Assembly: GCA_033675265.1 (NCBI GenBank)
Contig: JAUJYZ010000403.1
Span: forward strand, 62,001-126,000
Direction of reading: 5' to 3'
DNA from: Actinostola sp. cb2023
Taxonomy: Eukaryota > Cnidaria > Anthozoa > Actiniaria > Actinostolidae
Length of the DNA stretch: 64,000 nt
The position numbers and the translations under genes were made by a program. Position 1 is the stretch's first letter, and every line of letters starts with the position of its first letter. Positions 1,463 through 15,900 of this stretch are shown piece by piece. The notes below the pieces were generated by a model. It did not search any database and had not been told where the DNA came from. It saw nothing but the letters and a program-made list of their open reading frames with translations.

Positions 1463-2426
1463 TCTCGAAAATACATTCCTCATGAATGGTACTTATGTAC
1501 ATCTTGTAAGTTACCTTACAGTTACCTTGGCTTTCCTTTTTGCAGCTGGCTCTCCTTCCGCCTCCTTTGGAGTTGACTTTTGCTTCGTTCTCATCACTGC
1601 TGTTCTGTCTTTCTTGCCTTCGTATCGCGATCGGTGTATGGATATCCCTTCATAAATAAAGTAGGTTTCCAGCAAGAATGACATCTGTATCCATCGGAAA
1701 AGTGCTTTGAGCCCTCAAACCACTCCATAAGCTCCACCTTCGTCACCAATATGTAAGATAGATAGGATGCAGACCTTTGCCATGAAAGTCAGCCGGGGTA
1801 AGACTAAAATCATGAGTTCACCCAGCCTAGTCCCAGGTGTTATCTCTTCTAGCCGAGCGCGGAAGTGTGAGAGAACGCCCAGTGAATAGTGCCAAATACT
1901 ATCCTGATTTGGTTAAAATCTATCCTGATTTTGCACTAATGTTGCAAGTGATATGAAGTTTTCATATGATAGTTTCAAATTTTCTTGAAACTTGGCAGCA
2001 GTAATCCCTCACAATTGTACACTTGTTTGAGATAATTTGAATAAAATCCATCTTGGATTTTAGAAAATATCACAGCATTTTCTCTAAAAATGGATTTTCA
2101 CTATCAAGATGAAAAATATCCGAAATCGGTAAACGTTTTGCTGCTCAAAACATCGATTTAAAATGAGACCCATCGTCCAAAAATAGGGAAAAAAATAGGA
2201 ACACACCACCTTACTGAACAAAGCGAAAAATCGATAAATATTGAGTAGTATGCTGGTTGGTTTCTACCAAAACAATTAATTCATAGAGTTTGTTAATTGC
2301 ATTCAGCATGCGCAACAAATTTTTTAACAATGGCTCCTACAATGTACGATTTGATTCTTACAGACAGTGCAGCACTGATAGAGCTGTCTTAGAAGAATGA
2401 CTGACTACTCCTTCCTTCGAGCAGCT

Positions 2427-2657
2427 CCCCTAAAGGGTCGACCCGCCCGCCAAACAGATGGTTCCCGTATCTCGCCTGAAATCTTCTTCGAATACTTCAA
2501 CGATATCCTCGTTGAGCAATTCTGTGGCCGTTAAAATGTATTTCAGTTCTTTAGACAAAGAACTGAAATCGTCTCGACTTTGTTTGCCTTTACCAGCTGC
2601 TGGTATTTTATGCGCATTTCGTTTGGCATTTTCAATCAGCACATCGATTTGGTCCTA
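2427..2657 (-). pseudogene. Exon of unknown repeated gene, copy 1 (frameshifted)
   Basis: On the minus strand a splice acceptor (GTCTAG) precedes a reading frame beginning DQIDVLIENAKRNAHKIPAA. The peptide is about 75 residues, charged and helical, with no family I recognise. Compared with the copy at 9119-9357, a short deletion after 'VFEE' shifts the frame, so the C-terminus differs (FRRDTGT... instead of IQARYGN...). The copy near 9.1 kb keeps the longer alternative ending. Function is unknown; it is probably part of a transposon or a multi-copy gene. Confidence 0.45.
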
Positions 2658-2793
2658 GACGGGTACCTTGGAATTAGAATAATAATAATAATAAAGAAGA
2701 AGACGAAGAAGTAATTAATAAATAAACAAATAAATAAGGAAAACACATTACAACTGTGAAAGCATATATTTATGCACACACTAAAACAATTTT
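2427..2793. repeat. Dispersed repeat, copy 1 (paired with 9135-9508)
   Basis: About 370 bp starting CCCCTAAAGGGTCGACCCGC and ending in a (AAT)n/AAG-rich stretch and AAAACAATTTTAATC is almost identical to 9135-9508. Both copies contain the same exon-like reading frame on the minus strand. Sequences just outside (2305-2400 and 2893-3000) are themselves a direct repeat beginning AACAATGGCTCCTACAATG. A 44-bp unit is doubled at about 2806-2893. Confidence 0.9.
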
Positions 2794-3140
2794 AATCCTT
2801 TGTAAAGACTTGAAGACGATTACTCTTACCAATATTATTGATAGTCCCCATCCTCTGTGAAGACTTGAACACGATTACTCTTACCAATATTATTTAACAA
2901 TGGCTCCTACAATGTACGATTTGATGCTTACAGACAGTGCAGCACTGATAGTGGTGTCTTTGAAGAATGACTGACTACTCCTTCCTTTGAGCGGCCATCG
3001 CACAGAATTGCCCATTGAAGTCGGTCATGACCGGGAATAGCCTGAGTTCTAATGACTTTGGGCCAGAAACAATTGCTATTGTTAATTCTATGTTTTGATT
3101 GGCCAATTCTGAATGAAGTGTTTAGTATTCATAAAAAAAC

Positions 3141-4333
3141 ATGGCGGACAGAAAGAGACAGAGAAAAGGGTTTTATAGCGATCTAAATAGATTTAGCACT
3201 GTGGACGAGTGGAAAACATTGTATCTAGGAATCAAGAAGACAAGAAAAACTCAAGGGATTTATCATGTTGAAGATCTGATTGCCAAAGAAAGGTAGATAC
3301 TTACCGGGGACATTGCATATTTATCGAACAGATAAATTTGTAAACAAGCCGACTATTTCATTTGTTCCAATTTTGTTCTATAAACTTAGAATGAAGAGAG
3401 AGAATTCTTGGTCAAATGGAAAGGATGGGGCTCCGAGTTTAACTCATGGGAGCCCAAGTCACACATTTTAGACAAGAAACTAATACAGTGAGTTTTGCTT
3501 GCAAACTGATTATTATATTTACGCTCGTAACCGGAATTGCATGAGCCTTATACATACATTCGCTTAGATAAACCCGTGTTGCTCAAGCAAGTCTAGATCC
3601 ATGCATACTATGTCCAGATTCAATATTCATGTAATGAGCTGAATTAACTTATATACACTCACTAAATACTCGCTTATGTTATGTACATATAAAGCTTAAT
3701 AAACTTCATTTATAAATAAAATATATAATTCTTATAGAGTGATTCCAACTTATATACACTCACTAAATACTCGCTTATGTTATGTACATATAAAGCTTAA
3801 TAAACTTCATTGATAAATAAAATATATAATTCTTATAGAGTGATTCCAATAAACCTGGGCACTACTAATTAGCTGTCAGTGTTTATTAGATGCAAAGGAA
3901 CAAAATAAAACAAAAGAGTGAGTGTCTAATAGTATGTATTGGTGTAGTTAGTAATGCCCAGGTTTATTGGAATCACTCTATGTAAGCTTACGTAACTGTT
4001 AACTAACAATAACTATTGGTTTATTCATAAAGTGATCACATTAATTTTATGTCTTTATCATTTTATTATTGCAGACAATTTGAAAAGCCAAAGCTAGAAA
4101 ATTGTTTCGTCGAGGAAGCTGTGGAAGCACTAATGAATGTGATTGATAGTGGTTTGAAGGAATCTCTGCAAACAGATGTGATAATTCCTTTTCCACACAG
4201 TGTGTATCGTTTGCTTTTCAAAGGCAAGGGAAATGTGTGTGGAAACAGAAGTTTTGCATTAAGTCCAGAGGACTTTTCTGTGATAGGCTTTCCTTATGTC
4301 ATCGTTTTTCTTTTCGACCCCTTAAATAAATAA
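3141..4333 (+). CDS. Two-exon gene of unknown function
   Basis: Exon 1 (3141-3292) starts at ATGGCGGACAGAAAG and ends at a GTAGAT donor. Exon 2 starts at 4075 after TTATTATTGCAG and runs to a stop at 4331-4333, with AATAAA overlapping the stop. Codon phase agrees across the junction (AG|A, Arg). The product is about 136 residues: a basic N-terminus (MADRKRQRKGFYSDLNRF), then an acidic helical segment (FVEEAVEALMNVIDSGL) and a segment with PFPHSVYRLLFKG. I recognise no domain. The intron carries a tandem repeat and a MITE. The last 60 bases lie antisense to the final exon of the convergent minus-strand gene, so the annotated C-terminus may not be native. Confidence 0.5.
3646..3847. repeat. Tandem duplication, two 101-bp units
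   Basis: The unit AACTTATATACACTCACTAA to ATAGAGTGATTCC is repeated exactly one unit later, with a single visible substitution. The second unit runs into the left terminal repeat of the MITE at 3836-3980, so the first unit also ends with the first bases of that repeat. Confidence 0.9.
3836..3980. mobile_element. MITE, 145 bp
   Basis: The first about 30 bases (TAGAGTGATTCCAATAAACC and onward) are found inverted at 3950-3980. The interior is AT-rich and non-coding. It lies in the intron of the plus-strand gene at 3141-4333. A TA target is possible but not provable. Confidence 0.8.
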
Positions 4334-7300
4334 TAATAATAATCTTTATAAGAGGTATATGTTAGTACAGAAAAGGCAGACAATATGCGAATATCAGCTG
4401 TATTTATTTTTCAATATAAATTATGCTTACCTTGACCGGTAAATATTTTGAGTGTACCAATATTTTTGAGAAAAACTGGTACATGATAGACAAGAATGTG
4501 AATGTACGGGGTTATTGGATTGGTCCAATTGTAGCCTTCTCCTTTAATGGACATCAAATGCTTAGCCCAATCCATAACCTTCAAAATAAATTTTCAAGTA
4601 AACTCAATTATAACTAATAGATTTGTATTGTAAATTCTGTGCACAGCAATTTGGTGATTTACTGTAAATATCATTCTATTGCAACAATATTACCTCTTTC
4701 TCAAAGTTGTGTATGTCATTTGGGTGTGGATTAAGGTTTGTGATTGTGTCATACAAATCACCAAAGTCCTGCATTACAAATTGACTGTTATTAATAATTA
4801 TGTTATGTTATTTGTATTTGTTTAGTTGGAGTAAACAGGGCTAGTAAAGCATTGTTGTTTGTATTATTATAAAATCCAAGTTCATTATATATAATATTAT
4901 GTGTGCGTATACAATTCAAATAATCACAAACCTGCCAAAGCTTTCTAACATCTTGTAATTTAGAGGGGTGAATACATTTGTCAAATTTCATGGGCAGATT
5001 TCTTAAGAGCTTTTTTTTGTCGGTACCCATCAGTGATGTCCATTCTAACTTGTTATCTTTGTTTTTCCAAACAGAAAAGCTCACCCCACAGCTGTTTATT
5101 ACTTTAATTAATGTTTTTAAATGTAGATCTTGGCATTGATGTTTTGGTTTGCCTGAATTGTCTTCCTATACAATTAAGAAAAATATTGAAAAAAATGTCA
5201 ACATATTTTCAGGTCATATAAAAACTTTTAATTAAATAATAATAATAATAATAATAATGATACCAATACTAATAATATAATAACATAATTTGCAAAGCTA
5301 GGTAACACAAGTGCTTGTGTATTTGCCAAACCTCATCCCAGTCGATGGCATCATAGATTAAAGCATGTTCAAGCCTATCAGTCACTCTCAACATCATGTG
5401 GAGCTCATCAATAATTATGTGGTCTATTGGTATGTCGAATATATACTGGTGTCCACACCCTGGATCTTTATACCACTCGGGATGAAGGATTCGTTTCATC
5501 TCAGGGGAATCATAGTATTGCAATGGCTTAGTTAAGTCTTGTCTGTTGAAAAGATATAAACATGAAAAATATAAATACAAAGTATCTTTATGCAGTCTGT
5601 GTACTGATTAGTTTAAGCTACAAATGTACTTAAAGTAGTAAATAAATTATTTGTATTACTTCTTATTCGGAGAGATAATATTATACTCAGAGAAATATTA
5701 AAATAACATCAGCTAGTTCAGTTCGACTGTTATCAGCTCTGTCTATCAGTATAAGCAAAAAAATCAAATACCTTTGAAGCTTGTGAACTTTGCAATAAAT
5801 ACACGCATTGTTTGATGTTGCTTGCTTCATTCCCAGACAAAGGAGAAGAAACTGTATAAAGTAGAATTAATGCAGATTCATTTAATTTCATTCCAATAAC
5901 ATTCCAAAAATATCTCAAATTGTGTCAGTTTTAACTGTACCTTATAATCTCCACCAAGAACAAATTCTAGCTTAAGCTTTTTTCCTTCAACCTCAATGAA
6001 ACCATCTTTTTGCAAGCTATTTACATCACAGACAACATTGGCCAATGATTCCTTCAGGTTGTGAAAGCTCTCTGCTGTTTTTATTATAGCTATTGTGTGG
6101 TTACCTATGTGTCAAATATATGATATAATTAATGAGCAAAAACTAAGGTTTATTGATTATACCACATGTACATATAATAAATACAAATTAATACATGTAG
6201 GGATATTGTATTGTAAAAATGTTAATTTCTTTATGTGTGAATATTAAACATTGTTATAATTAACATTACTATACCAGTGCTTGACATCACAGTACCACCT
6301 TGATCAAGCAGAGCAAAGGAGAATACAACAAGGTTGCTGTTTCTTGTCATTTTTGCCCCGTCTCCACTAACTTTCACCTAGATGATCATTAACAAATAAT
6401 TATAATAAAGACATTCTCCCATTCTTATATACAGTGCATGTGCATTACTGTGTCCATATAAATAACTAAATATAATAAGGCTAGCAAAAAAAAGTATTCT
6501 AGTAAAGTATTGCATATTAAACACTTTATTTACAATTTATACTTACCTTATAAGTGATTTTTTTCTGGATCTTGGATGTCAGAGTTATTGACCTTCAATA
6601 TTAAAATATATGTTAAATCATTTAATAATTTACACATATTTGTGGTATATGTACATTTAATCTTATTTAAATCAGTGTCATTTAATTAAAGCAAACAGAT
6701 AGTCACACAATACTTGGGCAAACATACATGGTTATTTAAAGCTTCCTTCAAGAGCACTTTCAAATTAAGTTCAGCCCCTTCAAATGGTCCAGGAGTCTTT
6801 GTAACTTCTAGCTGGTCATCAAAGTAGGATTGACATCCTTCTACCATATATGACCGAGCTATTTCCTTATTACCGGGGAGCTGTGTTATTTCATGATATG
6901 CCTCTAACGACACACCAAACTTGTTCAAGATAAAGGTAAGACTTTTGATTGTCTCCTTTTCCTCATCTGGCATGCTATCAAATCTAGTTGTCTTGTATTG
7001 TTTGGATGATGTTGGACTAGTATCAGTCAATGTAACACTACTGCAGTTTTCTCTGACGTGTGTTGGAGAAACCGGTGGTGTGCTTTGGCTTTCTTTGTTA
7101 GGTTTATCTTGTTCTGGAATATAAATATGATAATTCTTATGAATCTTAGCTGTGTAATATGTTTTACAAATAAACTATTACAAATTCCATGACTATATTA
7201 TTTATATAATATGTACATGTTTCATATATCTTCACCGCATGTACATGTCTTACCAAGATTAATTGTGTGCTGTTTTATTGACCCTCCTTCCTCCATTGTA

Positions 7301-8403
7301 AGGCTCTTTGGCATAAGTCCATATGTCTCGGCAAACCATAATGCAGCATTGGCTCGATCTCTTATTGTTAAATTATAAATATTAGTTAATATAAGCATCT
7401 CACTTTGTATTTAACTTCTTTGATTTATATTAGGTGACCCAGTTATAAGTGCTTGATTATAAATGCAGCTATAAGCTACATGTAGTAGGAGGCAGGGGAT
7501 AATAATATAATAATTATAATAATAATACGAAAACGTCCTCCATCGGTTGTAAAGCATTGAGACATGAAATGCGCTATATAAGAACCGACATTATTATTAT
7601 TATTATTTATTTATTATATATGAGATACTTAGCAATGTATGTACTGTAAGGAAGCATTCATATTTTAGAGGGGTGCAAATACAGGAATATTTTTGTACAA
7701 AATGGAGGGTCCCCCACTATTCTAATGCTAGTACTTGCTGTACTGTCATAACTTCAATGAATATTCAAAAGTACCTGACTTCATTAAGTTTCCGATGCTG
7801 TTGTCTGTGTTTAACACCTTCAATAGTCTTGCCTTTGTTACTCATTTGTTTGTCTAATATATTTACTTGCTCCAACTCTTTGATGTGATTTGCGTTTTTC
7901 AATCCTTCTTCTAGAAGTTGCACAATAATTTCGTTTTTTTCATCCAATTTCTCATTTAATTCTTCCATATCCCTTTCGATCTTCTTTATTTCTTATTCTC
8001 TTTTTTGCATGACATCCGATGGCATTGATACCATTTCGCTATCCAGCAATCTGATGGAAAACCATTTCTGTGCCAATGTATCTTTCTTTTTGTGACTACT
8101 GAATGTTTTCACTTGTTTCACAAAGCGGTGTGTCATGGCCCGCAAATGGTTGCCTATCTTTGACTCAATACTGGAGGACATTCTGTATCCAAGTGGCTGC
8201 AGACTTACATTAAGGGAGATGAAATAATCATGCCAAGTCAGATTCCTCCAAATCCATAAGGCTTCAGCGGATATTTCTATTGTAAAGTAGGTTTCTGCTT
8301 CTTTTGCCGATGAAGGAATGACATTTAAGAACAGGGGACTAACTTTTAAAGAGGTACTTTCATCGAAAGCAGAAATAATATCCAACGCTTGTAAAGCCGG
8401 CAT
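4259..8403 (-). CDS. RAG1/Transib-like recombinase-family gene, 12 exons
   Basis: Exons on the minus strand: 8403-7775, 7360-7254, 7113-6728, 6570-6547, 6377-6275, 6104-5941, 5851-5772, 5542-5332, 5165-4932, 4768-4694, 4578-4431 and 4320-4259. Each junction has GT/AG and codon phase is continuous. Order of motifs: coiled coil; ALWFAETYGL; SGDGAKM followed by VVFSFALL; GNHTIAII; LGGDYKF then CIYCKVHK (zinc-knuckle-like); PIDHIIIDELHMMLRVTD; SLMGTDKKKLLRNLP; ITPYIHILVYHVP; GQGVEKKNDDIRK. In RAG1 the catalytic acids fall in blocks of the same order: an Asp before an FSF strand, an Asp before a C-x2-C finger, a 'PSID-LH' block, then 'ITNYFH-LAHVPE' and the final Glu. I infer a DDE RNase H-fold relative. 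An in-frame TAA at 7993-7995 interrupts exon 1, and the chain ends early after the last motif, so this copy may be dead. I know the family only as unnamed multi-copy invertebrate proteins. Confidence 0.6.
5231..5263. repeat. AAT microsatellite in intron
   Basis: A (AAT)n run lies in the intron between the eighth and ninth exons of the RAG1/Transib-like gene. Confidence 0.85.
7500..7615 (+). repeat. LINE/SINE 3' tail with ATT microsatellite
   Basis: The phrase GACATGAAATGCGCTATATA followed by AGAACCGACATT and an (ATT)n run looks like the 3' end of a non-LTR element. The same 'GAAATGCGCTATAT' phrase occurs twice inside the satellite at 21.15 and 22.14 kb. It lies in the first intron of the RAG1/Transib-like gene. 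Confidence 0.55.
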
Positions 8404-8588
8404 TTTTAAGCGCTAAAAATTAAAATTTCGCGCAAAATTTTCTATTATGGTTACCAGTCTCCGCTCGGACAGTCCATGCCCCATATTTCGCAAGTTATCG
8501 GTCCAATATTTCCGTGGATTTAAAAGAAACTGGCGCTAGACGTTTAGTTACTATAGGAACAGAGGCTAGGCTGCTAGGGCTTTGAAAA

Positions 8589-8927
8589 ATGGCTGCCGAA
8601 AGAGTTATCGTCGAACATTTCGACGTTTTCAGCCGCGGAAAAGGCGTGTTCGGTTTTGAGCTGCTACATAGAGCACAACAGACTTTTAAAAAAAGTCGCA
8701 AGAAGAAAAGTTCCTGAGCAAAAACTAGATTTCGTAAGTAATAATACAATGTTTGGGCACCAATATTCCGTTGTTACAATTATTGTATTTTCAATCGTGA
8801 AGCGGCATGACTCGATCAATCTTTTACAGTGCAGGAAATCCATACAAATATCAAGTGACCGGAGCAGACATTGCCCTGAAAAAGTCGCATGAAGACGAAA
8901 ACCTAATCCAAATCAGAAAGTAAGGCA
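8589..8927 (+). pseudogene. Candidate first exons of a plus-strand gene, divergent
   Basis: An ATG at 8589 opens MAAERVIVEHFDVFSRGKGV and continues about 43 codons to a stop in an A-rich run. A one-base shift would carry the frame on to a GTAAGT donor at about 8733. A second exon-like stretch (about 8830-8921) after TTTTACAG reads AGNPYKYQVTGADIALKK and ends at GTAAGG. The two starts, 8403 on the minus strand and 8589 on the plus strand, are only 186 bases apart and point away from each other. Shared promoter use is an inference. The product is unknown. Confidence 0.35.
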
Positions 8928-9118
8928 GTAATATGTGATTGTTATTAGTTTATTTTCTGTTGTTACAATTCATTGTAGAACACTCGATCTTTTCCAAACA
9001 GTGGTTTAAAAACTGACTTTTAGAGTTTTTACTGTAAAATTTGCTGGCCGTGAGATGAATATTATCGTCTGGGCGATTGGGTACGAGTATTTTTCATCAA
9101 TTATCCCGGATGTGACAC

Positions 9119-9357
9119 TCAATTCTGTGCGATGTCCCCTAAAGGGTCGACCCGCCCGTGAAACAGACGGTTCCCGTATCTCGCCTGAATTTCTTCTTCA
9201 AATACTTCAACGATATCCTCGTTGAGCAATTCTGTGGCCGTTAAAATGTATTTCAGTTCTTTAGACAAAGAACTGAAATCGTCTCGACTTTGTTTGCCTT
9301 TACCAGCTGCTGGTATTTTATGCACATTTCGTTTGGCATTTTCAATCAGCACATCGA
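9119..9357 (-). CDS. Exon of unknown repeated gene, copy 2
   Basis: Second copy of the exon at 2427-2657, within the duplicated block 9135-9508. After the acceptor (GTCTAG at about 9363) the frame reads DQIDVLIENAKRNVHKIPAA and continues EVFEEEIQARYGNRL to a stop at 9119. The copy lacks the deletion that shifts frame in copy 1. No domain is recognised. High identity between the copies, including the adjacent microsatellite, suggests a recent duplication or gene conversion. Confidence 0.45.
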
Positions 9358-9508
9358 TTTGATCCTAGACGGGTACCTTGGAATTAGAATAATAATAATA
9401 ATAAAGAAGAAGACGAAGAAGTAATTAATAAATAAACAAATAAATAAGGAAAACACATTACAACTGTGAAAGCATATATTTATGCACACACTAAAACAAT
9501 TTTAATCG
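9135..9508. repeat. Dispersed repeat, copy 2 (paired with 2427-2793)
   Basis: Near-identical to 2427-2793, in the same orientation, about 6.7 kb away. The pair flanks the RAG1/Transib-like locus and its convergent neighbour. The ends do not show clear inverted repeats or a target duplication. Confidence 0.9.
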
Positions 9509-13220: not shown

Positions 13221-13750
13221 AATTCTAAAGAAATCACAAAGAATGGAAAAATTATAAACTCGTCTGAGCTTGTGTGTACAGCACAACATTATGAAAAGAC
13301 ATACAATCACTTTACCGTTTGCTAAAACGGAAAATTTTGAAAATAATAAAGACAGAAGAATTGATCACTTACTTACTCTGCCTTTGACTTTGTGGGCTTG
13401 CTCATGATTAGTTTGAACAAAATAGGTACCTGGAAGCAAAGGGGGAAAAAACACTTAAAAATCTACTCGATATCGGCAAACCTCAGCTAAAAATCAAAGA
13501 TAATTTATTGCTGAAATAGTTTGTTTTCAAAATCACCGACATATCAAAGGATTTCTTGGAGAAAAGTAAGTATTTATACTCACGTTTTCGGTACAACTTC
13601 AAAGCACATGGAATGGCGTCGTAGACGTGACGGCAACGCGAAGGAAGCTTCTACTTGACATGCGCAAACTGACATATTCACTTCCGTTGACGTCGTACGT
13701 CGTGTTTTGCTCCTCGCGTCGTCGAATCTTAAAGTCCCTAATAATAACAA

Positions 13751-14060
13751 CATCACATCACATCACACTGATCACATCACACGGATCACATCACACGGAT
13801 CACAGACACTGATCACAGCACACTGATCACATCACACTGATCACAGCACACTGATCACAGCACACTGATCACAGCACACTGATCACAGCACACTGATCAC
13901 AGCACACTGATCACAGACACTGATCACAGCACACTGATCACATCACACTGATCACATCGCACTGATCACATCACACTGATCACATCACACTGATCACATC
14001 ACACTGTTCACATCACACTGATCACATCACACTGATCACATCACACTGATCACATCACAT
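13751..14060. repeat. 14-bp minisatellite, array 1
   Basis: Repeats of GATCACATCACACT with variants GATCACAGCACACT and GATCACAGACACT. Each unit carries a GATC. The matching array in unit 2 is at 14627-14866. Confidence 0.95.
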
Positions 14061-14117
14061 AATAATAATAATAATAATCACATCACATGCATTAAATATA
14101 TTTATGAACAATCTTAC

Positions 14118-14486
14118 ATGTGATGAGAAGGTCACCATTGTCATTGATGGTATTGGTTGGGGCAATTGCCTGGTAGAATCCATTTACAAAGGCATCCCTA
14201 TCATGAAATGAATGATCATGCAGAATCTTGTCACAGGCCAAGCAGATTTGCTTTCCATTACAAGAATGGCATCTTATGACTATCTTGCCAACATTACAAT
14301 GGGTACACACGTCTGATTTTCCCTCCTCCTTAACCACTTCTTGGAAAAGTTGGGTACGGCAGTTATCCCAATTGTCATTGAGAGCGAACATCCTGTCGTC
14401 CCAATATTTGCAAGAAGGCACATTTGGGAAAGACTCAATCATGTCTTTGCACCTCTTTATGGTGTCTTCTAAACTATCTTCTGTCC
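14118..14486 (-). CDS. Cys/His-cluster exon, KDZ-associated CxC type, copy 1
   Basis: The exon starts after TTATAG at 14486 and ends at a GTAAGA donor at 14118. It reads TEDSLEDTIKRCKDMIESFP, then KYWDDRMFALNDNWDNCRTQ, VCTHCNVGKIVIRCHSCNGK and ICLACDKILHDHSFHDRDAF, ending near TNTINDNGDL. The C-x2-C, C-x2-C, C-x2-C-D and H...FHDR spacing matches the CxC Cys/His cluster placed before KDZ transposases; B-box-like folding is an alternative. The frame is open throughout. Confidence 0.55.
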
Positions 14487-14626
14487 CTATAACAAATTAT
14501 GAACGGTTTAGCCTTTGTTTTTATATCATTGACATGCGCAAACTGACATATTCACTTCCGTTGACGTCGTACGTCGTGTTTTGCTCCTTGCGTCGTCGAA
14601 TCTTAAAGTCCCTAATAATAACAACA

Positions 14627-14866
14627 TCGCATCACATCACACTGATCACATCACACTGATCACATCACACGGATCACATCACACTGATCACATCACACTG
14701 ATCACATCACACGGATCACATCACACTGATCAATCACACTGATCACATCACACTGATCACATCCCACTGATCACATCCCACTGATCGCATCACACTGATC
14801 ACATCACACTGATCACATCACACTGATCACATCACACTGATCACATCACACTGATCACATCACATA
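14627..14866. repeat. 14-bp minisatellite, array 2
   Basis: Same 14-bp unit as array 1, with fewer of the CACAGCAC variants. The two arrays therefore diversified after the duplication, or copied different progenitor units. Confidence 0.95.
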
Positions 14867-14919
14867 ATAATAATAATAATCACATCACATGCATTAAATA
14901 TATTTATGAACAATCTTAC

Positions 14920-15256
14920 ATGTGATGACAAGGTCACCATTGTCATTGATGGTATTGGTTGGGGCAATTGCCTGGTAGAATCCATTTACAAAGGCATCCC
15001 TATCATGAAATGAATGATCGTGCAGAATCTTGTCACAGGCCAAGCAGATTTGCTTTCCATTACAAGAATGGCATCTTATGGTTATTTTGCCAACTTTACA
15101 ATGGGTAAACTTGGAAAATTTGGATACGGCAGTTATCCCAATTGTCATTGAGAGCGAACATCCTGTCGTCCCAATATTTGCAAGAAGGCACATTTGGGAA
15201 AGACTCCATCATGTCTTTGCATCTCTTTATGGTGTCTTCTAAACTCTCTTCTGTCC
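14920..15256 (-). pseudogene. Cys/His-cluster exon, copy 2 (deleted)
   Basis: Duplicate of the exon at 14118-14486. About 33 bases around 'FQEVVKEEGKSDVCTHC' are missing. This shifts the frame and removes one cysteine of the first pair, so the downstream part (HCKVGKITIRCHSC onward) lies in a different frame from the upstream part. The remaining cluster and the GTAAGA donor are conserved. It is probably non-functional. Confidence 0.6.
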
Positions 15257-15299
15257 CTATAACAAATTATGAACAGTTTAGCCTTTGTTTTTATATCAT

Positions 15300-15900
15300 T
15301 TTATAAGTTTGAATTCAATGAACCAGGGGTTAATGTTTTACATTTTTTGGGGTTTCCTTGTCAACAGTAATTTTAATTTATTGCATCTGAGATAGAGCCG
15401 TTAAAAATCCTCTGGCTGGCTGATGGACCAACAAATTTGAAAATCCAGACTGCATGGGTACATGTTACCCTAACCCTAACCCCACAAATACCTGCTTCAC
15501 GAAGCCAAACATTCCATTCCATTCCCACGAGCAAAAACGTAAAATATACCCCTATCCCAGAAAGAAACAGTGATTTTTATACCCTTAGTAGTTGTTCCAG
15601 AGTCTGATGCTAAAACCATACCCGGCTGTCGAGCTGCATGCGCACATCCTCATATTACCCATTCCTGGTCCCCAACAGGATTACCTTATAAAATTCTTGT
15701 CATACCTGTCTTGAACAGATCTTCAGTCATCTCAACATCATTGCTTTCTACTGAAACACTCTCTGAATCTAAAATAAGAAAATTTCAATAGCGCATAAGT
15801 ACAGTAGATACCGACTAATGTGATGGTACCTGAAAACACAACTCAATCCTCAACTTTCTTGCCATTTAGTCTTTGAATAGAAAACAGCTTTTACAGTCTC
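15300..15900. other. No gene seen; short CCCTAA run
   Basis: No supported gene. At 15469-15483 there are two copies of CCCTAA, too few to be a telomere. Confidence 0.6.

Follow-up and report, generated by a model that had tools for sequence, protein, structure and literature searches.

The window, by which we mean the whole 64,000-nucleotide stretch of Actinostola sp. cb2023 DNA that was analysed, contains a transposon of 6139 bp at positions 2996-9134, bounded by perfect 15-bp inverted repeats. Two comparisons locate its ends exactly: one with a paralogous site in the window that lacks the insertion, the other with L009, a further copy from the same genome. The paralogous site matches the insertion flanks on both sides (2319-2425 to 2889-2995 at 93%; 2426-2797 to 9135-9507 at 98%). 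L009, which is 7212 bp long and has the same 15 bp CATCGCACAGAATTG at both its ends, aligns with the window copy from 2995 to 9134, at 97.6% over the main 4.9-kb block. With as many as 3 mismatches allowed, the end motif has 3 occurrences in the window, where chance predicts 2.1, so that the case for terminal inverted repeats (TIRs) in this copy is made by the two exact motifs placed at the breakpoints and not by motif count. A sequence-only reading had taken 4259..8403 as the unit; the real one is larger and includes a second gene, on the plus strand and convergent with the transposase gene. The features are:

2319..2797, no strand: uninterrupted paralogous target site, junction 2425/2426 (sequence alignment to insertion flanks)
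2889..2995, no strand: left insertion flank (match to paralogous site)
2996..9134, no strand: whole transposon copy, internally deleted (exact breakpoints against 2319-2797; L009 alignment)
2996..3010, plus: TIR CATCGCACAGAATTG, partner-gene end (exact match to opposite end; also in L009)
3141..3292, plus: partner exon 1, frame disturbed relative to L009 (L009 comparison)
3390..3487, plus: partner exon 2, chromodomain core EFLVKWKGWGSEFNSWEPKSHI (Pfam Chromo E 2.9e-13, 50 bits, cut-off 25.1, manually joined exons)
4075..4281, plus: partner exon 3, conserved C-terminal domain, 3' part missing (comparison with other elements)
4259..4320, minus: transposase exon 12, catalytic Glu in GVEKKND (near-invariant E673 of P0010; L009 comparison)
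4431..4578, minus: transposase exon 11, HxxxxH zinc pair TPYIHILVYHVP (near-invariant H648, H653 of P0010; aligned with RAG1)
4694..4768, minus: transposase exon 10 (exon joining; L009 comparison)
4932..5165, minus: transposase exon 9 (exon joining; L009 comparison)
5332..5542, minus: transposase exon 8, DELH motif (invariant H488 of P0010)
5772..5851, minus: transposase exon 7, CxxC zinc pair (invariant C423, C426 of P0010; aligned with RAG1, RAG1L)
5941..6104, minus: transposase exon 6, second Asp in GGDYK (invariant D404 of P0010; weak-stretch alignment to RAG1 Asp)
6275..6377, minus: transposase exon 5, first Asp in SGDGAKM (near-invariant D323 of P0010)
6547..6592, minus: transposase exon 4, frameshifted (46 nt against 45 nt in L009)
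6728..7113, minus: transposase exon 3 (exon joining; L009 comparison)
7254..7360, minus: transposase exon 2 (exon joining; L009 comparison)
7775..8403, minus: transposase exon 1, N-terminal region, premature stop near 7993 (stop not in L009)
9120..9134, minus: TIR CATCGCACAGAATTG, transposase end (exact match to opposite end; also in L009)
9135..9507, no strand: right insertion flank (match to paralogous site)

On the minus strand, twelve exons between 8403 and 4259 join with GT-AG at all internal borders, and every block quoted in the sequence-only reading was found, in the order it gave: SGDGAKM (exon 5), GGDYK/F (exon 6/7 border), CIYCKVHK (exon 7), PIDHIIIDELH (exon 8), ITPYIHILVYHVP (exon 11) and GQGVEKKND (exon 11/12 border). 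The transposase has 38 homologs (best E 1.8e-135), and a profile search returned 281 matches at E<=1; judged on sequence, the block set is far beyond chance. In the window gene itself, exon 1 contains a premature stop, exon 4 is frameshifted, and about 1.24 kb present in L009 is lacking; this internal deletion, at about 4277-4281, truncates exon 12 and removes most of its coding part. The window copy is dead. Elsewhere the frame is open in one copy of 864 aa over 12 exons and in three single-exon copies of 818-874 aa, and short derivatives of the element are dispersed at unrelated flanks.

Across 48 sequences, C423, C426 and H488 (P0010 numbering) are invariant, and H648 and H653 are conserved in at least 90%. 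A pattern search found the full C(2)C/LH/H(3-4)H motif set in 67 of 145 homologs, many of which are fragments, and 66 of those 67 also have the Glu; P0022 has Ala in place of the catalytic Glu. Among 120 matches listed of 281, one protein from a hemichordate and one from a mollusc (P0120, P0140) extend the family beyond its wide cnidarian presence, and both of these proteins have SAP or Ish1 tails just under the Pfam cut-offs. The earlier reading had proposed a family active in cnidarians, and perhaps in other invertebrates; the window copy is broken. Searches of bacterial and viral contigs (query A4), each with one short peptide pattern and of low sensitivity, gave 12 hits each, none confirmed.

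Structure prediction followed by structure comparison gives a transposase fold that is RAG1-like across the whole core, about 430-450 residues, with an RNase H core of the RAG1 type; in most structure-comparison rows the match to mouse RAG1 starts at about residue 457-461. This supports the proposal that the protein is a distant RAG1/Transib relative or belongs to a separate superfamily of the same fold. Of the three acids that had been placed at RAG1 catalytic positions, the Glu is borne out, aligning together with HxxxxH to the RAG1 counterparts within a significant stretch of the profile alignment. The second Asp and the CxxC align in a further stretch, in the right order and not significant by itself (3.5 to 9.3 bits), and the first Asp is assigned solely from its position in the predicted model. 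The Pfam RAG1 family is missed by 43 of 48 members at E<=0.01, with P0010 reaching 18.2 bits against a cut-off of 25, and on such scores the absolute strength of the sequence link with RAG1 is low. In two profile searches no Transib chains were found among 59 and 19 PDB sequences at E<=10; nearer relatives could be CMCT groups absent from the matched solved structures, namely Chapaev, CACTA and Mirage. One hit, to Fic chains of IbpA (E 0.0044), was taken as chance. The N-terminal segment is long and helical, and in four transposases the nonamer-binding and RING/zinc N-terminal regions had no Pfam match at E<=0.1.

The features of the CMCT clade are present: a predicted RAG1-type RNase H DDE core, C(2)C, LH and H(3-4)H between the second D and the E, and 5'-CA..TG-3' ends in 9 of 10 TIR-bounded elements, the remaining one having CG..CG. 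The ends of these ten read CATCGCA, CATAGCG, CATTACC, CATTGCC or CGTTACC. RAG signals are of 12- and 23-bp types. Here, in 4 of 7 lineages, the 11-mers that match best between the two ends are displaced from each other by 10-11 bp, much like those two signal types, a post hoc observation; the shared 11-mers, each taken singly, are not beyond chance, the score being reached by 145 to 300 of 300 shuffles, so that an RSS-like 12/23 asymmetry of the ends is a lead only.

The second gene encodes a protein of about 220 aa with a chromodomain and a conserved C-terminal domain. The two genes lie tail to tail in all 10 TIR-bounded elements examined, although the partner match of L026 is weak (E 0.001). 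In other species, P0149 and P0087 lie on contigs of equal length (23,720 bp), a mere hint that the genes may be linked there too. For the partners of both L009 and L022, the Pfam matches at E<=0.1 comprise chromodomain families and include neither kelch nor PHD. Conservation extends past the chromodomain, the four aligned partners being 32-55% identical to the first. A Foldseek search of the C-terminal model against the PDB gave nothing at E<=0.001 (best E 0.7), a result of little weight because four of five models were poor.

Insertion leaves almost no target duplication: of three empty sites, two indicate 0 bp and one 1 bp. At 28 independent insertions there were no duplications of 4-8 bp, duplications of at least 2 bp were not beyond chance, and 1-bp matches were more frequent than in shuffled data (16 of 28 against 7.1). 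Among these 16, L040 counts as 0 bp when judged from its empty sites. The set of 28 leaves out L049 (flanks equal to L048), L012 (flanks equal to L011) and 10 of 20 candidate stretches in which no second end was found. For L031, an empty-site search with joined flanks matched its own two flanks alone. A palindromic target was hinted at by the flanks of the window copy and L009 and is absent by eye at L010 and L011. The sequence-only reading had proposed a search for TIRs and 5-bp duplications: the TIRs are perfect over 15 bp, and 5-bp duplications were found at 0 of 28 insertions. The broken gene, TIRs other than CACAGTG/CACWATG, the missing 5-bp duplication and the chromodomain partner had not been foreseen or differ from that reading.

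The window element is, with high probability, a dead member of a new lineage of two-gene, cut-and-paste DNA transposons within the RAG1/Transib (CMCT) clade. It combines exact ends with TIRs, a convergent chromodomain gene and a transposase of the DDE type that has C2/H2 zinc ligands and is predicted to fold like RAG1; the family has many copies, open frames, spread short derivatives and insertion with 0-1 bp target duplication. We propose that the transposase would bind and pair the two ends, cleave as RAG1 and Transib do, by a nick and then a hairpin on the flank, and join the ends to two target phosphates lying opposite or one base apart. The partner chromodomain may read a methylated histone tail while its C-terminal domain tethers or regulates the transposase, a job that we infer to be akin to that of the RAG2 PHD finger, without kinship to RAG2. 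More tentatively, and as slightly less likely than not, we suggest a RAG1-fold lineage, neither Transib nor RAGL, with its own convergent histone-reader cofactor and near-zero-stagger end joining.

That these are domesticated host genes, as their multi-exon structure and wide cnidarian presence might suggest, is scarcely credible, and is ruled out for the elements studied by exact TIRs, empty sites and short derivatives dispersed at unrelated flanks. RAG signal ends are blunt, and excised blunt ends might be captured in double-strand breaks by host end joining, with no near-zero stagger at all; the lack of 4-8 bp duplications at 28 insertions is as break capture predicts. However, bases should then often be lost or gained, yet two of three empty sites are exactly restored and the third differs by 1 bp, and the 1-bp excess (16 of 28 against 7.1, with L040 a 0-bp case) also counts against capture, which we hold improbable. 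Similarly improbable is that the chromodomain gene is a passenger or a regulator unconnected with integration: it keeps the same place and convergent orientation across elements with three classes of ends and is conserved beyond the chromodomain in the four aligned partners.

Somewhat less unlikely is that the lineage is already filed in Repbase under a CMCT superfamily (Chapaev, Transib, EnSpm, Lanisha) and is new only to open databases. Against this, 48 members together match 25 listed Pfam families, of which RAG1 is the sole transposase family; P0034 has an rve match that falls in a fused integrase part, and none of the 120 matches listed of 281 profile matches is named a transposase. The CAT or CGT starts and 0-1 bp duplications also differ from the 5 bp of Transib. 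They differ likewise from the hallmarks of Chapaev, CAC/GTG termini and 3-4 bp duplications in the available text of PMC4079192. In favour of a filed member, the present elements carry C(2)C, LH and H(4)H, and most of them end in 5'-CA..TG-3', as the portions available of PMC12730594 and PMC4079192 describe for CMCT.

RAG1/RAG2 is the textbook case of a transposon turned immune system. The two-gene transposon described here would pair the RAG1 fold with a domain of the histone-reader type for a second time, apparently without relation to the first, and in the same convergent arrangement. It occurs in animals without antibody genes and has open frames in some copies, and a comparison of the two could show which features of RAG are general. 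If the more tentative reading holds, either a RAG1-type recombinase joined with a chromatin reader arose more than once or the pairing predates RAG2, and the 5-bp stagger of RAG is a changeable trait of the fold. Near-zero duplication, if confirmed, would mean that an enzyme of the RAG1 fold can carry out strand transfer in another geometry, and might provide a tool for seamless insertion.

The Spy (PHIS) transposase belongs to an unrelated clade. Spy likewise inserts without target duplication in the accessible text of PMC11304231. Its insertions lie between AAA and TTT, but an AAA|TTT target was not seen in the element flanks here. Within the CMCT clade, Chapaev/Chapaev3, EnSpm/CACTA, Mirage, Plavaka, ESTA and Lanisha share C(2)C, LH, H(4)H and CA..TG ends, with clade duplications of 2-5 bp (PMC12730594, as available); a chromodomain partner is not mentioned for them in the available text of PMC12730594 and PMC4079192. 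RAG1/RAG1L may differ in the RING, which Pfam at E<=0.1 did not match in four transposases here; the present transposase differs in its long helical N-terminal segment and up to 12 exons. Transib has a single transposase gene and 5-bp duplications, against two genes, 0-1 bp and a different TIR sequence here. RAGL has a RAG2L partner with kelch repeats and a PHD finger, and the RSS-like heptamer CACAGTG; the partner here is a chromodomain protein with no kelch or PHD matched, and the ends lack that heptamer and the 5-bp duplication. The likeness to RAG1/RAG1L and RAGL (ProtoRAG) lies in the predicted core fold and the aligned Glu and C2/H2 ligands and, for RAGL, in the pair of convergent genes enclosed by TIRs, of which the one beside the transposase gene encodes a domain of the histone-reader type.

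The transposase gene lies in a transposon that interrupts one of two copies of its target sequence, and a partner gene of the same transposon converges on it from the opposite strand. The features of the window are listed here (L numbers denote other stretches of the same genome, P numbers database proteins).

2996-9134: transposon copy
8403 to 4259, minus strand: transposase gene, twelve readable exons with GT-AG borders
2319-2425 and 2426-2797: target-site halves, adjoining
2889-2995 and 9135-9507: copies of these halves, separated by 6139 bp
2319-2888 and 2889 onward: coding C-terminal exon in tandem, one copy split by the transposon after GRVDPLG
3835-3981: MITE-like insertion of about 147 bp in a partner-gene intron, with 37-bp inverted repeats (ATAGAGTGATTCCAATAAACCTGGGC...), absent from the sister copy L009
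3646-3847: 101-bp tandem duplication adjoining the MITE-like insertion
1050-1460: repeat unit of 113-127 bp, several copies
13687-14906 and 14062-15300: 14-bp tandem repeat arrays plus duplicates of 190-250 bp, 97% identical

Perfect 15-bp inverted repeats, CATCGCACAGAATTG, are found exactly at both breakpoints flanking the 6139 bp. The sequence-only reading had proposed a search for terminal inverted repeats around copies of the gene, and this pair, present also in L009, answers it. On the minus strand the uninterrupted target copy reads as the terminal part of a coding exon (...GRVDPLGELLEGRSSQSFF, followed by a stop, with a frame change further upstream by our reading), and the transposon therefore cut a duplicated gene fragment; the gene to which the tandem exon copies belong had a best Pfam E of only 0.042. 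The best other match, L009, shares the ends of the window copy but not its flanks; it is 7212 bp long and aligns to the window from 2995 to 9134, and its transposase is a continuous frame of 864 aa across twelve exons. As judged from its sequence, the window copy is dead; its transposase carries a premature stop in exon 1 and a frameshift in exon 4, and about 1.24 kb is absent from it, affecting the 3' ends of both genes.

Twenty stretches (L009-L028) were fetched from the 424-Mb assembly containing the window. L010 and L011 belong to another multi-exon subfamily, whose ends read CATAGCGTA... (L012 duplicates L011). L020 and L022-L026 make up a subfamily with a mostly single-exon transposase and ends like CATTACCAGAAATC; uninterrupted frames of 844 aa (L022), 874 aa (L023) and 818 aa (L025) occur among them. 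L015 is a partial copy, and an end scan of L013, L014, L016-L019, L021, L027 and L028 gave no standout pair of such ends. Three pairs of stretches at separate places are near-identical (L048/L049, L011/L012 and L027/L028, the last two pairs each split between contigs), which would fit an assembly that retained both haplotypes or segmental duplicates. A genome-wide count gave 64 occurrences of the 14-base end CATTACCAGAAATC and one of its reversed control. Nine end pairs about 1.07 kb apart represent one deletion derivative, which combines about 1034 bp and 52 bp from the two ends of L023 and lacks most of the transposase gene; among 20 further single end hits, 10 had both ends inside the stretch, one of these being a duplicate. 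The short elements have thus moved, presumably mobilised in trans. One derivative, L036, has a copy of one 22-bp sequence (GATCAGTAATACCACAATATTG) on each side, which is either a tandem repeat or an unusual long duplication.

The stagger of insertion is 0 or 1 bp. The flanks of 28 independent insertions agree over 1 bp in 16 cases, against a shuffled mean of 7.1 (16 or more in 2 of 5000 shuffles), over 2 bp in one and over 3 bp in one. Agreement over 4-8 bp was found in none of the 28, and the 5-bp target duplications for which the sequence-only reading had advised a search are thus absent from these sites. Empty sites show a duplication of 0 bp for the window, 1 bp for L010 (compared with L024) and 0 bp for L040, the last in all 10 places fetched of the 42 where the joined flanks match through; because L040 counts among the 16, not every 1-bp match is a duplication.

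Within the first 40 bases of the ends, two motifs are shared by the diverged multi-exon subfamilies (window, L009, L010, L011): GGTCATGACC at base 28 on the partner side and GTCAC.TCCGG at base 18-19 on the transposase side. In 4 of 7 lineages, the best 11-mer match between the two ends is shifted by 10-11 bp. Each such match alone falls within shuffles, and both the motifs and the shift are leads to be treated with caution.

Joining the twelve exons at their GT-AG borders recovered the conserved blocks in the order originally described. The transposase core of the window copy had no match in Pfam; a protein search returned 38 homologs, all cnidarian where a species was given, and all uncharacterized, hypothetical or unnamed except P0034, named for its integrase part. 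In this Stylophora gene model a piece of the family is joined to an integrase of retroelement type (rve, E 3.7e-5), probably through a gene-model fusion. A nine-sequence profile matched 281 proteins at E<=1, and among the 120 matches listed none had transposase in its name. The matches listed include proteins of Saccoglossus kowalevskii (P0120) and Mytilus coruscus (P0140), in keeping with the earlier suggestion that other invertebrates might harbour the family. Also among them is P0138, assigned to Candidatus Thiodiazotropha taylori from a bacterial metagenome bin; we take it to be host contamination. An alignment of 48 homologs shows no variation at the second Asp, the two Cys or the LH His, and conservation of 90% or more at the first Asp, the Glu and the two C-terminal His. 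Our own patterns, run over 145 homologs that include many fragments, picked up the first Asp in 116 sequences, the second Asp in 133, CxxC in 129, DxLH in 135 and HxxxxH in 114; they located the Glu block in 96, of which 95 have Glu and one has Ala. The predicted structure of P0010 has a long helix ahead of the core (residues 67-135) that may have a role in dimerisation, and some homologs (P0120, P0140) have a SAP-like tail, scoring just below Pfam cut-offs, that may bind DNA.

Exon 2 of the plus-strand partner gene, in exons joined by us, encodes a chromodomain (Pfam E 2.9e-13). Matches to its product occur in 14 of the 20 stretches (all but L013, L014, L015, L017, L018 and L019; weak in L026, E 0.001), always convergent with the transposase, and the gene lies inside the terminal repeats of all ten bounded elements (window, L009, L010, L011, L020, L022-L026). 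Four exon-joined partners align over their full length, past the chromodomain, at 32-55% identity to the first, and those of L009 (56.8 bits) and L022 (31.6) exceed the Pfam Chromo cut-off of 25.1. A protein search returned 22 proteins, six of them relatives (P0146-P0151, E 3e-44 to 6e-23); the other 16, at E 3e-12 or weaker, we take to have the chromodomain in common at best. The partner P0149 and the transposase P0087 come from contigs of equal length (23,720 bases) and so may be linked in an independent assembly. The predicted model of the partner's C-terminal domain had no match in the PDB.

RAG1/Transib transposases hold the two ends in a paired-end complex, nick and then form a hairpin on the flank, and transfer strands through a DDE site in a zinc-stabilised core. 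Taking as established the ends, the two genes, the fold prediction, the copies and the insertion spectrum, we propose by analogy that the two ends would be joined in such a complex, that a nick and flank hairpin would form at them, and that a DDE site in a zinc-stabilised core would carry out strand transfer. The target phosphates attacked would be opposite or adjacent, and the partner could be a chromatin tether or regulator.

The proposed kinship with RAG1/Transib is upheld, the family being placed in that (CMCT) clade on its predicted fold, its motifs and its mostly CA..TG ends. A literature search on Transib/RAG1 with cnidarians, a chromodomain or missing duplications found no such element, most subscription journals being outside its coverage. 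In published descriptions, duplications are 5 bp for Transib and RAGL (PMC7204232), 3-4 bp with CAC/GTG termini for Chapaev (PMC4079192), 2-5 bp with mostly CA..TG ends for the CMCT clade (PMC12730594), and zero for Spy, outside CMCT (PMC11304231). Compared with these descriptions, the present family lacks both the 5-bp duplication and the single gene of Transib, the kelch/PHD partner and RSS-like ends of RAGL, and the CAC ends and 3-4 bp duplication of Chapaev. These differences lead us to class it as a putative new lineage within the known CMCT clade, as judged against the published features of Transib, RAGL and Chapaev.
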